Positions 42,736 through 52,565 of a DNA stretch of 64,000 nucleotides are shown here, in pieces. This stretch comes from Bacteroidia bacterium (GTDB lineage Bacteria; Bacteroidota; Bacteroidia; Cytophagales; Cyclobacteriaceae): contig JAUILA010000001.1 of assembly GCA_030432655.1 (NCBI GenBank), forward strand, positions 186,001-250,000, in the 5' to 3' direction. Both the position numbers and the translations under genes were made by a program. Under the pieces are notes generated by a model. It was not told the origin of the DNA. It made no database searches and saw only the letters and a list, made by a program, of their open reading frames with translations. Each line of letters starts with the position of its first letter. Within the stretch, counting starts at the first letter, position 1.

Positions 42736-42800
42736 ATTGTCGTTGAGTTGAATTTGTGTCTAAAGATAAGGATTCCTTTGCGAACAGCCAGCAAATAAAA

Positions 42801-42896
42801 AAGGCAAATCAAGTATCGCACCGCTACAACCGCCTACCCTTGCTACCTTCCGGTCCTGGGGGAGTTCAGCAGGAGCTGGTCGTACTGATTTGCCCA
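42801..42896 (-). ncRNA. ffs: Signal recognition particle RNA, small bacterial (4.5S) type
   Basis: On the minus strand the conserved SRP domain IV apex reads AGGACCGGAAGGTAGCA, close to the canonical GGTCCGGAAGGAAGCAGC loop with its GGAA tetraloop. The ends pair: GGCAAATC at the 5' side (42894-42887) with GATTTGCC at the 3' side (42810-42803). The stem is followed by a T-run toward 42797, which would act as the terminator. A promoter element sits immediately upstream. The RNA binds Ffh for co-translational targeting. Confidence 0.93.
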
Positions 42897-42898
42897 TG

Positions 42899-42930
42899 CA
42901 AAGGTACGAACAATTGAGGAACTCAAAAAA
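42899..42930 (-). promoter_or_regulatory. Promoter of the SRP RNA gene
   Basis: The minus strand has TTTTTTG at 42930-42924 and TACCTTTG at 42906-42899, 17 bases apart, matching the Bacteroidota -33 and -7 boxes. The -7 element ends 3 bases before the paired 5' end of the SRP RNA, which fits the expected RNA start. Confidence 0.65.
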
Positions 42931-43798: not shown

Positions 43799-43957
43799 AT
43801 GGGAAAAGGAGACAGGAAAACAAGAAAAGGTAAAATCGTTAAAGGAACATACGGTGTCTCGAGACCGCGACCGTCAAACACCGCCAACAAGCCCGGGGAA
43901 AGCAAGAAAAAGACCTCCGGTAAAAAATCCGCGAAAGAAAAGAGCGCAAAAAAATAA
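43799..43957 (+). CDS. 30S ribosomal protein bTHX
   Basis: 52 residues. The start MGKGDRKTRKGKIVKGTYGV followed by SRPRPSN is the bTHX (Thx) signature, a small basic protein that binds the top of the 16S rRNA head in Thermus and Bacteroidota. Here the usual core of about 26 residues is extended by a Lys/Ser-rich tail (KKKTSGKKSAKEKSAKK). The gene lies immediately before the trp leader with no visible terminator between them, so some readthrough into the trp leader is possible. Confidence 0.9.
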   Translation: MGKGDRKTRKGKIVKGTYGVSRPRPSNTANKPGESKKKTSGKKSAKEKSAKK

Positions 43958-44009: not shown

Positions 44010-44066
44010 ATGAATACAAAGCATTTTTATAGCGTCTGGCACTGGTACTTTACTTCATCGGAGTAA
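44010..44066 (+). CDS. trpL: trp operon leader peptide
   Basis: 18 codons: MNTKHFYSVWHWYFTSSE. Trp codons are at 44037-44039 and 44043-44045 in a Trp-His-Trp pair, flanked by Tyr and Phe. It lies between a promoter and a transcription terminator directly upstream of trpE and overlaps the 5' arm of a pause hairpin. These are the marks of a ribosome-sensed attenuator: slow decoding of Trp codons would stall the ribosome over the first arm. It is not a functional protein by itself. Confidence 0.88.
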   Translation: MNTKHFYSVWHWYFTSSE

Positions 44067-44145
44067 GGAACAGCGCTATATGAATGCCTAAGAAAAATAT
44101 AAAATCACAAAAGCCTGCTGTTCACCTACAGCGGGCTTTTTTTTT
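44028..44145 (+). promoter_or_regulatory. trp attenuator: pause hairpin, antiterminator and terminator
   Basis: Arm 1 TATAGCG (44028-44034) pairs with arm 2 CGCTATA (44074-44080), 7 bp. Arm 2 as GAACAGCG (44068-44075) pairs instead with arm 3 TGCTGTTC (44116-44123), 8 bp with one wobble. Arm 3 as AGCCTGCTGT (44112-44121) pairs with arm 4 ACAGCGGGCT (44128-44137), 10 bp with one wobble and a 6-base loop, before a T-run to 44145. The three pairings exclude one another. Stalling at the Trp codons covers arm 1, which frees arm 2 for the antiterminator. This is the classic amino acid attenuator design. Confidence 0.88.
44112..44145 (+). terminator. Attenuator terminator upstream of trpE
   Basis: A 10-bp stem (44112-44121 with 44128-44137), a 6-base loop and nine T residues (44137-44145). 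The T-run ends 5 bases before the trpE ATG, leaving no room for a separate ribosome-binding site, which is common in this phylum. Confidence 0.9.
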
Positions 44146-49738: not shown

Positions 49739-50539
49739 ATGGAAACCCAGGAATTAGATAAAAACCGAATTAACCGATTGTTCCGCGAAAAAGGGAACGA
49801 CCTGCTGTCCGTTTATTATACAGCCGGCTTCCCGGGACCGGAAGATACCATGGAAATTGCCAGGTTGCTTGAGGAAGCCGGTGCGGATATCATTGAAATC
49901 GGAATGCCATTTTCAGATCCGGTGGCGGACGGGCCTACAATCCAGGCCAGTAATAATCAGGCGCTGAAGAACGGGATGTCGATCGCCCGACTGCTGAGCG
50001 GGTTACGGAATATGCGGGAGCAGATAAGTTTGCCTGTCATCCTGATGGGATACATCAACCCTGTCCTGCAGTACGGCGTTGAGAAATTCTGTTCGGAATG
50101 TGAGCAGGCCGGTGTTGACGGACTTATTCTCCCGGACCTGCCTATGGCTGAATACCTTCAGGAATACAAACAGATATTTGACAACCACGGTCTGAAGAAT
50201 GTATTTCTGATCACTCCGCAGACCTCAGAAGAGCGGATCCGTCAGATTGATGATAATACGGACGGGTTTATATATATGGTTTCGTCGGCAGCCACGACCG
50301 GAGCAAAGAAGGGGTTCAGTGATGAACAACTGGAATATTTTGAGCGGATCAGATCCATGCAGCTGCAAAATCCGCTGCTTATCGGGTTTGGGATATCGGA
50401 TCATTCGACATATTCGAAAGCGAATGAGTACGCCCGCGGGGCTATTATTGGGAGTGCCTTTATCAGGCTGCTGTCAGAAACAGAAGACAAGGAAAGAGAT
50501 ATTAAAAAATTTATTAAGGAGATAAAAGGAAGATCATGA
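49739..50539 (+). CDS. trpA: Tryptophan synthase alpha chain
   Basis: 266 residues from the ATG at 49739. The catalytic Glu is in IIEIGMPFSDPVADGPTIQ, the Asp in GVDGLILPDLPMAEY, with VFLITPQTSEERI and GFIYMVSSAATTGAKKGFS following. It cleaves indole-3-glycerol phosphate and passes indole to TrpB. The open frame extends to 49571 within trpB, but that extension has no family similarity. It overlaps the DAHP synthase gene by 4 bases. Confidence 0.96.
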   Translation: METQELDKNRINRLFREKGNDLLSVYYTAGFPGPEDTMEIARLLEEAGADIIEIGMPFSDPVADGPTIQASNNQALKNGMSIARLLSGLRNMREQISLPVILMGYINPVLQYGVEKFCSECEQAGVDGLILPDLPMAEYLQEYKQIFDNHGLKNVFLITPQTSEERIRQIDDNTDGFIYMVSSAATTGAKKGFSDEQLEYFERIRSMQLQNPLLIGFGISDHSTYSKANEYARGAIIGSAFIRLLSETEDKERDIKKFIKEIKGRS

Positions 50540-51546
50540 TCATACAATTAGAATCACAGGTTGATGAGGGCCAGAAAAAGGATATCATCAATAAAATCAA
50601 CGAACTGAAGTACAAAACCACGGAAGTAAAGACCCAGAAGGGTGATTACCTGGTGGGCATTGGAAAAAAGGATTTTGATATCCGGAAGATCGGCAATCTG
50701 CCGGGGATTGCAGACATCCACATCGTTTCCGACGATTATAAACTGGTGTCAAGGAAATGGAAAGTAAAGCCTACCGCGATCGACCTGGGCGATGGGGTTG
50801 TCATTGAAGAAGGCAGTATGGCGATCATGGCCGGGCCCTGTTCGATCGAAGGTGAAGAGCAAATTGAGAAAACTATCGAACATCTGGTGGAGAATGGCGT
50901 ACGTATTATGCGCGGAGGGGTATACAAGCCGCGAAGTTCTCCGTATTCCTTCCGGGGTATGGGTATTGACGGATTGAAATTATGGTACGATGCAGCCAGG
51001 AAAGCGGGAATCAAGATCATTACGGAGGTTATGCAGGTGAGCCAGATCGGGGAAATGTATGATTACATTGATATATACCAGGTGGGTGCCCGAAACACAC
51101 AGAATTTTAATTTACTGGATGAATTAGGCAGGGTGGACAAGCCGGTGATGATCAAACGGGGCATTTCCGGGACAATTGATGAGTTGTTATACTCAGCGGA
51201 ATACGTTTTTTCCGCGGGCAATGAGAACCTGCTTCTTTGTGAGCGGGGTATCCGGACCTATGAAAAAGCCACACGAAATACCATGGATATCAATGCGATC
51301 TCCATATTGAAGGAAAAAACGCACCTGCCGGTTATTGCAGACCCGTCTCACGGCATAGGAATTCGGGATCACGTAGATCCGGTTGCACTGGCCTCGGTAA
51401 TGGCAGGAGCTGACGGGGTGATCTTTGAGACACATGAAAAACCGGAAGAGGCCTTTTCTGACGGGCAGCAGACCCTGGACTTCAGCGAGTCGAGCCGCTT
51501 GATCGAAAAGATCCGGAAGGTGCACGATTTGCGTGAAAGCCTTTAA
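50536..51546 (+). CDS. aroF: 3-deoxy-7-phosphoheptulonate (DAHP) synthase with N-terminal regulatory domain
   Basis: 336 residues. An N-terminal ferredoxin-like domain of about 75 residues (MIIQLESQVDEGQKKDIINK, then KDFDIRKIGNLPGIADIHIV) precedes the barrel: IMAGPCSIEGEEQIE, GVYKPRSSPYSFRGMGIDGL, GARNTQNFNLLDELG, LPVIADPSHGIG and FETHEKPEEAFSDGQQ. This is the type I-beta form; the added domain in Thermotoga-type enzymes binds Tyr or Phe for feedback control. It makes the first shikimate pathway intermediate. As last gene of the trp operon it ties precursor supply to Trp attenuation. Confidence 0.94.
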   Translation: MIIQLESQVDEGQKKDIINKINELKYKTTEVKTQKGDYLVGIGKKDFDIRKIGNLPGIADIHIVSDDYKLVSRKWKVKPTAIDLGDGVVIEEGSMAIMAGPCSIEGEEQIEKTIEHLVENGVRIMRGGVYKPRSSPYSFRGMGIDGLKLWYDAARKAGIKIITEVMQVSQIGEMYDYIDIYQVGARNTQNFNLLDELGRVDKPVMIKRGISGTIDELLYSAEYVFSAGNENLLLCERGIRTYEKATRNTMDINAISILKEKTHLPVIADPSHGIGIRDHVDPVALASVMAGADGVIFETHEKPEEAFSDGQQTLDFSESSRLIEKIRKVHDLRESL

Positions 51547-51561
51547 AAATGGTACTTCCCG

Positions 51562-51591
51562 TTGTTTAAATCATTTAAACAGGTATATTTG
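51562..51591 (+). promoter_or_regulatory. Promoter of the phenylalanine hydroxylase leader
   Basis: TTG at 51562-51564 and TATATTTG at 51584-51591 are 19 bases apart, an excellent match to the Bacteroidota -33/-7 promoter. The expected RNA start is a few bases before the leader-peptide ATG at 51600. The spacer holds a perfect inverted repeat (51564-51580). Confidence 0.7.
51564..51580. repeat. Perfect inverted repeat in the promoter spacer
   Basis: GTTTAAATCATTTAAAC: 7-bp arms and a 3-base centre. It lies between the -33 and -7 boxes and 17 bases after the DAHP synthase stop. It could be a protein-binding operator or an AT-rich hairpin at the end of the trp transcript. No T-run follows, so it is not a standard terminator. 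Confidence 0.6.
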
Positions 51592-51599
51592 AAACTCAA

Positions 51600-51680
51600 A
51601 TGAACCGATTTTATAACACATATTACTTTTTTTATTTCGGAACGCGTTCCGGATCAGGTAGTATGTGTCTGAATAAATAG
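51600..51680 (+). CDS. Tyr/Phe-rich leader peptide before phenylalanine hydroxylase
   Basis: 26 codons. Residues 1-13 are MNRFYNTYYFFYF, with four Tyr (codons 5, 8, 9, 12) and four Phe (4, 10, 11, 13); the rest is Gly/Ser-rich and ends at TAG 51678-51680. It starts 8 bases after a strong -7 element and precedes a terminator. Its first half overlaps the 5' arm of a pause structure. The density of Tyr and Phe codons and the hairpin set mark it as an attenuator leader peptide, like pheL but upstream of a hydroxylase. Confidence 0.85.
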   Translation: MNRFYNTYYFFYFGTRSGSGSMCLNK

Positions 51681-51733
51681 AAACAGATAACAAGTGAATA
51701 CAAGCCTGATCCTTCGGATCGGGCTTTTTTTTT
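51616..51733 (+). promoter_or_regulatory. Tyr/Phe attenuator: pause helix, antiterminator and terminator
   Basis: Arm 1 ACACATATTAC (51616-51626, covering two Tyr codons) pairs with GTAGTATGTGT (51658-51668), 11 bp with one wobble, enclosing a small hairpin CGGAACGCGTTCCG (51638-51651). The segment GGATCAGG (51651-51658) pairs perfectly with CCTGATCC (51705-51712), the 5' arm of the terminator. The terminator itself is an AAGCCTGATCC arm (51702-51712) with GGATCGGGCTT (51716-51726). A ribosome stalled at the Tyr/Phe run covers arm 1, favouring the antiterminator; one reaching the stop codon at 51678 masks the second arm, favouring termination. Confidence 0.85.
51702..51733 (+). terminator. 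Attenuator terminator upstream of phenylalanine hydroxylase
   Basis: A stem of 11 bp with one G-T wobble (51702-51712 with 51716-51726), a 3-base loop (TTC) and nine T residues ending at 51733. It lies between the leader-peptide stop (51680) and the hydroxylase ATG (51750). Confidence 0.9.
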
Positions 51734-51749
51734 GGATTAAAGTTTAGCA

Positions 51750-52565
51750 ATGATGAAAAAAAGCAAGATCAGCACATTAAAGAACGGCCGTCAGAATCAT
51801 GCGGCATATACAGATGAGGACCACCTGGTTTGGCGTCTGTTGTTTGATAAACAGATGGAACAGCTTGGTAATCGCGCCTCGCTTCATTTTATGGAAGGGC
51901 TGAAAAAAACAGGATTCACCCGTGAAAATATACCGCATTTTGAAGAGGTCAATCGCCGTCTCATCAAGCTGACCGGCTGGCAGGTGGTGGCGGTGGAGGG
52001 TATTGTGGAGGACCGAGAATTCTTTGAATTGCTTTCGGAACGTAAATTTCCTGCAACCACCTGGTTACGATCACAGGATCAGCTGGAATACCTTGAAGAA
52101 CCTGATATGTTCCATGATGTATTTGCGCATGTTCCGCTTCTTTCCAATCCTGCCTTCGCAGATTTCCTCCAGCAGATAAGCCGGATAGCTTTGCGATATG
52201 CCGGCAACGAAGAAGCAATTGAACTGCTCTCCAGGGTGTACTGGTTCACGGTAGAATTCGGATTGATCCGGGAAAAGGGACAATTACGTATTTACGGAGC
52301 CGGAATCCTGTCATCCGCGGGCGAATCAACTTACTGCCTCGGACTTGATCCAATGCATTTTGAATTCGGCGTGGAGCAGATTCTCAATACCGGATATTGC
52401 AAAAGCGAATTTCAGGACAGGTACTTTATTATTGACAGTTTTGAAAAATTATTTGCCAGTACTGCGGAGATCAGTGAACTGATCGATACGATGATGAGTA
52501 AGCGGAAAATATTCGCCCCGGAAGAAATGAGTAAAAATGGACAGGATTTAGTACCTTCATGGTAG
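51750..52565 (+). CDS. phhA: Phenylalanine 4-monooxygenase (aromatic amino acid hydroxylase)
   Basis: 271 residues, single-domain bacterial type without an ACT domain. Iron ligands are the two His in DMFHDVFAHVPLL and the Glu in VYWFTVEFGLIRE; GAGILSSAGESTYCLG is the substrate/pterin region. It hydroxylates Phe to Tyr using Fe(II), tetrahydropterin and oxygen. It starts 16 bases after an attenuator terminator whose leader peptide is Tyr/Phe-rich, so expression likely responds to charged tRNA-Tyr or tRNA-Phe. In that setting it probably serves Tyr supply. Two ATG codons in tandem are possible starts. Confidence 0.93.
   Translation: MMKKSKISTLKNGRQNHAAYTDEDHLVWRLLFDKQMEQLGNRASLHFMEGLKKTGFTRENIPHFEEVNRRLIKLTGWQVVAVEGIVEDREFFELLSERKFPATTWLRSQDQLEYLEEPDMFHDVFAHVPLLSNPAFADFLQQISRIALRYAGNEEAIELLSRVYWFTVEFGLIREKGQLRIYGAGILSSAGESTYCLGLDPMHFEFGVEQILNTGYCKSEFQDRYFIIDSFEKLFASTAEISELIDTMMSKRKIFAPEEMSKNGQDLVPSW

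Follow-up and report, generated by a model that had tools for sequence, protein, structure and literature searches.

A predicted tyrosine-sensing attenuator upstream of the phenylalanine hydroxylase gene in Cytophagales

The aroF-phhA Locus and its Leader Region

The window analyzed in this work, a stretch of 64,000 nucleotides from a Bacteroidia bacterium of the family Cyclobacteriaceae (order Cytophagales), contains a trpEGDCFBA-aroF cluster, the final gene of which is aroF, followed by the gene phhA. The end of aroF and the start of phhA are separated by 203 bases, and the leader region that is described here is located in this gap. The genes aroF and phhA were named based upon NCBIfam models, and the names of the trp genes come from reading of the open reading frames (ORFs). 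The product of phhA was identified by an NCBIfam equivalog match as phenylalanine 4-monooxygenase; its closest named relatives are from Fulvivirga and Flammeovirgaceae assemblies, and the residues H122, H127, and E169, which we take to be the iron ligands, are invariant in alignment A1. The features of the locus are as follows.

50536-51546, + strand: aroF (DAHP synthase), NF006421 above cut-off
51562-51564, + strand: TTG, putative -33 element of the leader promoter, from sequence reading, at about -33 from the predicted start 51596
51584-51591, + strand: TATATTTG, -7 box (TAnnTTTG), exact fit to the Bacteroidota -7 box
51600-51680, + strand: leader ORF of 26 codons, MNRFYNTYYFFYFGTRSGSGSMCLNK followed by the stop codon, from sequence reading; Tyr leaders recur in relatives
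51616-51628 with 51656-51668, + strand: predicted pause helix (RNAfold), 13 pairs including G-U, the 5' arm lying over Tyr codons 8 and 9
51651-51659 with 51704-51712, + strand: predicted antiterminator (RNAfold with the 5' part masked)
51702-51733, + strand: predicted intrinsic terminator (folding), arms 51702-51712 and 51716-51726, 11 pairs
51750-52565, + strand: phhA, phenylalanine 4-monooxygenase, 271 aa, NF008877 and TIGR01267 above cut-off, PF00351

The leader ORF begins with MNRFYNTYYFFYF, with the promoter box shortly upstream of it and phhA directly downstream of the unit formed by positions 51584-51733. Upon re-reading of this ORF its first 13 residues were the same as those quoted in an initial annotation of this DNA, which had been made from the sequence alone. 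Tyr is encoded by codons 5, 8, 9, and 12 (all within 51612-51635) and Phe by codons 4, 10, 11, and 13, and the stop codon is at 51678-51680. The segment NTYYFFYF of this leader corresponds to NTYYYYYF in L091 and to STYYYYYF in L092, both of which are near relatives. The occurrence of four Phe codons amid the Tyr codons (51609-51638) sets this leader apart from those of its relatives, and one possibility is that these Phe codons have arisen by drift from Tyr.

According to the accessible portions of the papers cited here, promoters of Bacteroidota carry the sequence TAnnTTTG (PMC7366714), and this -7 box sits at positions -12 to -5 (PMC9723704). When the box at 51584-51591 is placed accordingly, the start of the transcript is predicted at 51596, and the predicted 5' UTR of the leader (start 51596, ORF 51600) is only 4 nt long. 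The TTG at 51562-51564, taken alone, is a weak motif. The -33/-7 promoter that had been reported here in the initial annotation is borne out by the exact match of TATATTTG to the -7 box with a TTG at about -33, and the predicted start lies far upstream of position 51680, a start downstream of which had been named as evidence against an attenuator. A scan of the region 51400-51900 for sigma-70 promoters identified none, which is in keeping with a phylum whose promoters carry TAnnTTTG. Among the 48 leaders from this and related bacteria that are described below, the exact TAnnTTTG sequence was present upstream of 29, in comparison to 2.6% of shuffles, and with at most one mismatch it was found 4-8 nt upstream of the ATG in 32 of the 48, for which 5' UTRs of 0-4 nt are therefore predicted. 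Leaderless mRNAs are otherwise rare, amounting to 5.5% in Flavobacterium psychrophilum (PMC9723704, seen in part), and the ribosomes of Bacteroidota are described as not recognizing Shine-Dalgarno sequences (PMC9976891, seen in part).

The unmasked leader folds into the pause helix of 13 pairs and the terminator, which has a tract of nine T (51725-51733) and is the only terminator-like site in 51400-51900. When the fold was masked up to 51639, which mimics a ribosome stalled at the Tyr codons, 51651-51659 paired with 51704-51712 and the terminator helix was lost; with masking up to 51692, mimicking a ribosome at the stop codon, the terminator alone was formed. The antiterminator consists of eight Watson-Crick pairs (51651-51658 with 51705-51712), to which the pair 51659-51704 adds a G-U, and a Watson-Crick run of 8 nt was seen in 28 of 5000 shuffles, which represents the chance level for this leader. 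The initial annotation had listed a perfect 8-bp antiterminator and a competing 11-bp terminator with nine T before phhA, and both were found again on folding; the pause helix over the Tyr codons was also recovered, with the count of 11 bp changing to 13 pairs when G-U pairs are included. The leader combines clustered Tyr codons, a terminator, an antiterminator that is exclusive with it, and a pause helix, which are the features by which an attenuator is recognized.

Tyr-rich Leaders Upstream of phhA in Related Bacteria

Relatives of PhhA were detected in 38 of 59 near genomes and in 253 of the 390 genomes of the order. Ninety phhA upstream regions were fetched, of which 80 could be oriented, the other 10 having no phhA match in a short stretch. 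Leaders with at least four Tyr in 10 codons were present in 21 of these 80 regions, as compared to 7 of 800 dinucleotide shuffles, and those with at least five Tyr in 14 of 80 regions and 0 of 800 shuffles; before 59 of the 80 phhA regions of the order no leader was found at the 4-Tyr threshold. For the named phhA loci, the corresponding numbers were 29 of 80 versus 26 of 4362 control windows from those loci (at least four Tyr) and, when five or more Tyr were required, 18 of 80 versus 4 of 4362. The named and unnamed sets overlap, and the chance tests were made on each of them separately; eight identical leader pairs were merged across the two sets. This recurrence of Tyr-rich leaders before phhA is the conservation of the leader ORF for which the initial annotation had suggested looking.

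The leaders of the relatives contain up to seven consecutive Tyr residues. Examples of them are the phhA leaders of Fulvivirga sediminis (MNSKYYYYYYYRITPFGVGVVCS), Marivirga arenosa (MNFTHNTYYYYYQSPKGIGNGSVMHIL), and Roseivirga spongicola (MNNAYYYHYYHATQVRNGRHMF), and Tyr leaders are also present in Cesiribacter sp. SM1, Nafulsella turpanensis, Hymenobacter gummosus, and Rhodocytophaga aerolata. Taken together, the Tyr windows from the 48 distinct units comprise 480 residues, of which 221 are Tyr, 48 are His, and 14 are Phe, and two or more Phe residues are found in the Tyr window of only one of the 48 phhA leaders, namely the window's own. Phe as a conserved signal is ruled out by these residue counts, and of the "Tyr/Phe-sensing" that had been proposed initially the Tyr part is retained and the Phe part is not. 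The Tyr codons of the phhA leaders include 146 TAT and 83 TAC, and the use of both of them suggests that conservation acts on the peptide and not on a repeat in the DNA.

Another leader, which is strongly conserved and contains both Tyr and His (MNPTPRTYVHHSYHLLR, with variants), was also observed before phhA, mostly in Algoriphagus (L104, L114, L115, L125, L131, L135, L142, L244, and L245). The His codons of this leader are conserved at least as well as its Tyr codons, and its terminator was tested in L125, L135, and L142 only.

Pairing and Spacing of the Leader Elements

When three or more Tyr were required, 58 distinct leaders were obtained, and for eight of them the threshold applied yielded no terminator. 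From the remaining 50, L106 (in which the hairpin precedes the Tyr codons) and L054 (which has a TTG start and a hairpin 62 nt past the stop) were removed by hand, giving the set of 48 units. The terminator is located 19-40 nt past the leader stop in 48 of the 48 units kept, a count in which the terminator was a condition of entry and the two removed units were spacing outliers. In 43 of the 48 units, a distance of 8-18 nt (median 12.5) separates the last Tyr codon from the start of the antiterminator arm, and based upon the size of the ribosome, an arm at this distance would be free with the ribosome stalled and covered with the ribosome at the stop.

Of 43 references prepared from the 50 units, 38 were aligned using MAFFT. 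In the terminator, changes on both sides were seen in 8 of 9 pairs, and all 500 shuffles were exceeded on every measure. The signal for the antiterminator on this alignment was weak, as only its covariation score stands out, with 4 of 500 shuffles scoring as high; the percentage paired was reached by 111, the number of pairs by 437, the number of cells by 112, and the number of pair types by 237 of the 500. Due to this weak signal, an alignment-free test in which the partners are swapped among leaders was used for the antiterminator. In the 48 leaders, the antiterminator arms had a mean of -13.55 kcal/mol with their own partners as against -11.0 with swapped ones, and for the pause helix, in 45 leaders (three units, including L125, were too short in sequence), these means were -13.3 and -10.53. 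In both cases the value for the own partners was reached in 0 of 5000 permutations, and the partner-swap result was also obtained in a non-redundant set of 40 members. When considered singly, 18 of 48 antiterminators and 25 of 48 pause helices had p < 0.05 in comparison to shuffled sequence. The search for covarying arms in relatives, which the initial annotation had named as a check, was thus positive for the terminator in the alignment and for the other two helices in the swaps.

Leaders of the Same Type Upstream of Other Genes

A covariance model was built from the phhA leader unit and then searched in genomes. In the own genome, the phhA site was found with an E value of 1.2e-10, and the next matches, which include the trp leader of the window, had E values of 0.27 and worse. 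At an E value of 0.01, the model had matches in 195 of the 390 genomes from the order and 85 of the 296 from the phylum, many of these matches being weak or partial. From the matches listed, 29 loci and 34 regions were picked by hand and read. Among the loci read, a Tyr leader was present before tyrA in L235 and before aminotransferase-tyrA pairs in L232, L233, L236, and L242, which represent three genera; these genes were named by similarity to the tyrA of the own genome and its neighbor. In two loci from one genus (L173, which by its leader is Fulvivirga sediminis, and L174), aroF is followed by a Tyr leader and then by phhA, an aminotransferase gene, and tyrA, the last three being separated by no more than 9 nt, and in L175 the aminotransferase, tyrA, and phhA are contiguous. 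In these three loci the aminotransferase was named from reading, and tyrA was located by a PF02153 search. In the own genome, no Tyr or Phe leader was found in the stretches read before pheA and before aminotransferase-tyrA.

Attenuator-like leaders with a comparable arrangement, but with codons for other amino acids, were also noted before amino acid genes of Bacteroidota (L183-L230), with the genes behind them named from reading or by similarity to proteins of the window. Thr/Ile-rich leaders precede aspartokinase-like genes, His-rich leaders hisG- or hisH-like genes, and Phe/Tyr-rich leaders DAHP synthase or pheA-like genes (L185, L191, L211, and others).

Tyrosine Supply in Genomes with and without the Leader

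The distribution of tyrA and of 4-hydroxyphenylpyruvate dioxygenase was compared in genomes with and without the leader, where a leader was counted when it had at least three Tyr in 10 codons together with a terminator (G140 and G361 were counted and G075, which has a TTG start, was not). Out of 66 genomes, G132 was excluded, as no terminator passed the threshold for its Tyr leader, and nine others without a leader class were excluded for lack of a good phhA match (tyrA is absent in one of these nine). The tyrA gene (PF02153) is absent in 13 of 22 phhA genomes with the leader, whereas it is absent in 5 of 34 without it (Fisher p 0.001, with kinship ignored), and genera with a tyrA-less member number 11 of 16 and 4 of 28, respectively. 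A 4-hydroxyphenylpyruvate dioxygenase gene adjoins phhA, as read from coordinates, in 0 of 22 genomes with the leader versus 9 of 34 without it (G025, where the two are about 5 kb apart, was excluded). These counts suggest a biosynthetic setting of phhA where the leader is present and a catabolic one where it is not. A tree-based pair test of tyrA loss against the leader did not confirm the association, as only two supported independent pairs were obtained from a quick tree that has few supported branches and in which the PhhA of the window is on a long branch. The dioxygenase itself was detected above cut-off in 59 of the 66 genomes, and hence most of the genomes with the leader are probably also able to degrade tyrosine. 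The own genome contains pheA as well as tyrA with an aminotransferase, and PhhA there would therefore be a second, and not the sole, route to tyrosine. Fitness data for Echinicola vietnamensis, as given in the accessible part of their report, indicate that both tyrosine routes are present and that phenylalanine hydroxylase matters in some defined media (PMC7311316).

Proposed Mechanism and Alternative Explanations

Based upon comparison of sequences, it is very probable that phhA is controlled, as a tyrosine-supply enzyme, by a ribosome-mediated attenuator responding to the level of charged tRNA-Tyr. Computation has provided the parts, the way in which they recur, pair, and are spaced in relatives, and the use of this leader type at canonical Tyr genes; the stalling, the read-through, and the direction of the response are inferred. 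Transcription would begin at about 51596, with immediate translation of the leader ORF. When Tyr-tRNA is plentiful, the ribosome should reach the stop codon at 51678-51680 with the 5' arm of the antiterminator staying covered, and the terminator at 51702-51733 would then end transcription upstream of phhA. When Tyr-tRNA is scarce, the ribosome would stall at the Tyr codons (51612-51635) and open the pause helix, leaving 51651-51659 free to pair with 51704-51712; the terminator would be blocked, phhA transcribed, and Phe converted to Tyr. As the arrangement recurs in many related bacteria, PhhA is most likely switched on at tyrosine shortage. The initial annotation had proposed both this stalling scheme and a Tyr-supply role of the enzyme; the comparative checks in relatives favor the former, and the latter is backed by the Tyr leaders at tyrA and aminotransferase-tyrA, by the phhA-aminotransferase-tyrA operons, and by the E. 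vietnamensis data in the portion of PMC7311316 referred to above. A broader proposal that we regard as likely is that in Cytophagales one Tyr-specific attenuator serves non-homologous enzymes of tyrosine synthesis, namely PhhA in some genomes and TyrA or aminotransferase-TyrA in others (with all of them in a single operon in Fulvivirga sediminis), that PhhA is biosynthetic there, and that the switch operates on an mRNA that is nearly leaderless, its leader ORF mostly having a predicted start 0-4 nt from the transcript start.

Counting against the Tyr attenuator are the four Phe codons in this leader, at which a stall would raise the level of a Phe-consuming enzyme. Further points against it are the tyrA and aminotransferase genes kept by the own genome, the many phhA genes of the order that lack a leader of this kind, and the weak antiterminator signal on the alignment. 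With its four Phe codons, the leader could conceivably respond to Phe no less than to Tyr, or even chiefly to Phe, and phhA would then be tied to the general aromatic state; all four are among the first 13 codons, a stall at Phe13 would, by its position in the sequence, also free the antiterminator, and some DAHP synthase or pheA-like genes of Bacteroidota do have mixed Tyr/Phe leaders. However, among the 48 phhA leaders only the window's own has two or more Phe in its Tyr window, and making more PhhA during a shortage of Phe would be self-defeating, which renders the sensing of Phe unlikely. The position of the terminator downstream of the trp-aroF cluster, together with the presence of a promoter box, would also fit a plain terminator followed by a constitutive internal promoter between this cluster and phhA, the Tyr-rich ORF being incidental. 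This arrangement is very improbable, as several genera share the Tyr leaders, the two alternative helices, and the spacing of these parts, this recurrence exceeds that in shuffles, control windows, and partner swaps, and many of the leaders have no aroF in the up to 3 kb upstream that was examined.

Regulatory terminators often carry riboswitch, T-box, or TRAP-like sensors, and a leader that binds a metabolite or protein could take the place of ribosome stalling here. Tyrosine genes of other species are under T-boxes (PMC1262725, seen in part). For the phhA leader such a sensor is hardly credible, as no Rfam family matched at gathering score at the window site or in the leaders of nine loci, no conserved unpaired aptamer was visible by eye in the alignment, and the parts that recur are the Tyr codons, the terminator, and the terminator's complement. 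In the Rfam analysis of the window site, Phe_leader (RF01859) scored 19.4 bits against a gathering threshold of 55, neither Bacteroid-trp (RF01692) nor T-box gave a match in 51540-51760 at E values up to 10, and T-box also had none at gathering score in the window. In the nine leader loci the sole match was an SRP RNA elsewhere in L181. The top match to the phhA leader site at a lax threshold, MicC (33.2 versus 90 bits, E 0.0017, 221 bases), was rejected as being far below cut-off.

Relationship to Known Regulatory Systems

In the attenuators of enteric bacteria, a leader ORF with many codons for the amino acid under regulation is combined with a pause helix, an antiterminator, and a terminator with its T tract. 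The phhA leader follows the same scheme as the enteric trp, his, thr, and pheA attenuators (Rfam Trp_leader, His_leader, Thr_leader, and Phe_leader) but differs from them in that Tyr would be sensed, the predicted 5' UTR is about 4 nt, and the gene controlled encodes an oxygenase to which a catabolic role is usually ascribed. The T-box RNAs read tRNA directly and have no leader ORF, unlike the phhA leader, and phhA is under T-box control in some Bacillus. Earlier predictions may be contained in the 2010 survey of bacterial attenuators by Lopatovskaya et al.

The following comparisons refer to the accessible parts of the papers cited. Tyr T-box leaders likewise exert an attenuation of Tyr genes that is controlled by Tyr-tRNA, and in the same work phenylalanine is assigned to attenuators and tyrosine to T-boxes (PMC1262725). 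Bacteroid-trp is from the same phylum and of the same style as the phhA leader but concerns another amino acid and other genes (RF01692; PMC2864571). In F. psychrophilum, clues to leader-peptide attenuation have been noted before amino acid operons, and the 5' elements described there are those of pheA, hisG, ftsY, acsA, alaS, and rimP, with no tyrosine element or phhA among them (PMC9723704). Short ORFs reminiscent of leader peptides are reported in Bacteroides (PMC7366714), and leader peptide systems were known in 2010 in Proteobacteria and Actinobacteria, with Firmicutes being added (PMC2965389). The phenylalanine hydroxylase of Pseudomonas aeruginosa (phhABC) is also regulated, by PhhR, which unlike the RNA attenuator proposed here is a protein activator in a catabolic setting; this paper also mentions database-predicted attenuators before the tyrA operons of several bacteria (PMC1173090). 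Within the literature searched, as far as it was read, neither an attenuator before phhA nor a tyrosine leader peptide was described. The mechanism is classical, and what appears new within these bounds is that Tyr would be sensed and that phenylalanine hydroxylase would be controlled.

In bacteria, the enzyme is commonly assigned to Phe catabolism, as its initial step. If the proposal made here is correct, a Tyr attenuator before phhA would mark a role in tyrosine supply from sequence alone, providing a simple cue for pathway annotation, and it could explain the synthesis of tyrosine in tyrA-less aerobic Bacteroidota. Tyrosine would also be added to the list of amino acids for which leader peptides act as sensors, and one regulatory element would serve two unrelated enzymes with a common product.

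Other Features of the Window

A second attenuator, identified by sequence reading, is located at 44010-44145 before trpE, with the leader ORF MNTKHFYSVWHWYFTSSE at 44010-44066 and a terminator at 44110-44145. The highest-scoring Rfam family by bits for this trp leader was Bacteroid-trp (27 bits, E 0.3), below the cut-off of 49. Shortly upstream of it, at 43799-43957, there is a basic ORF of 52 codons (MGKGDRKTRKGKIVKGTYGVSRPRPS...), which presumably resembles ribosomal protein THX, and a Bacteroidales small SRP RNA (RF04183, 83.5 bits) is present on the minus strand at 42798-42902.
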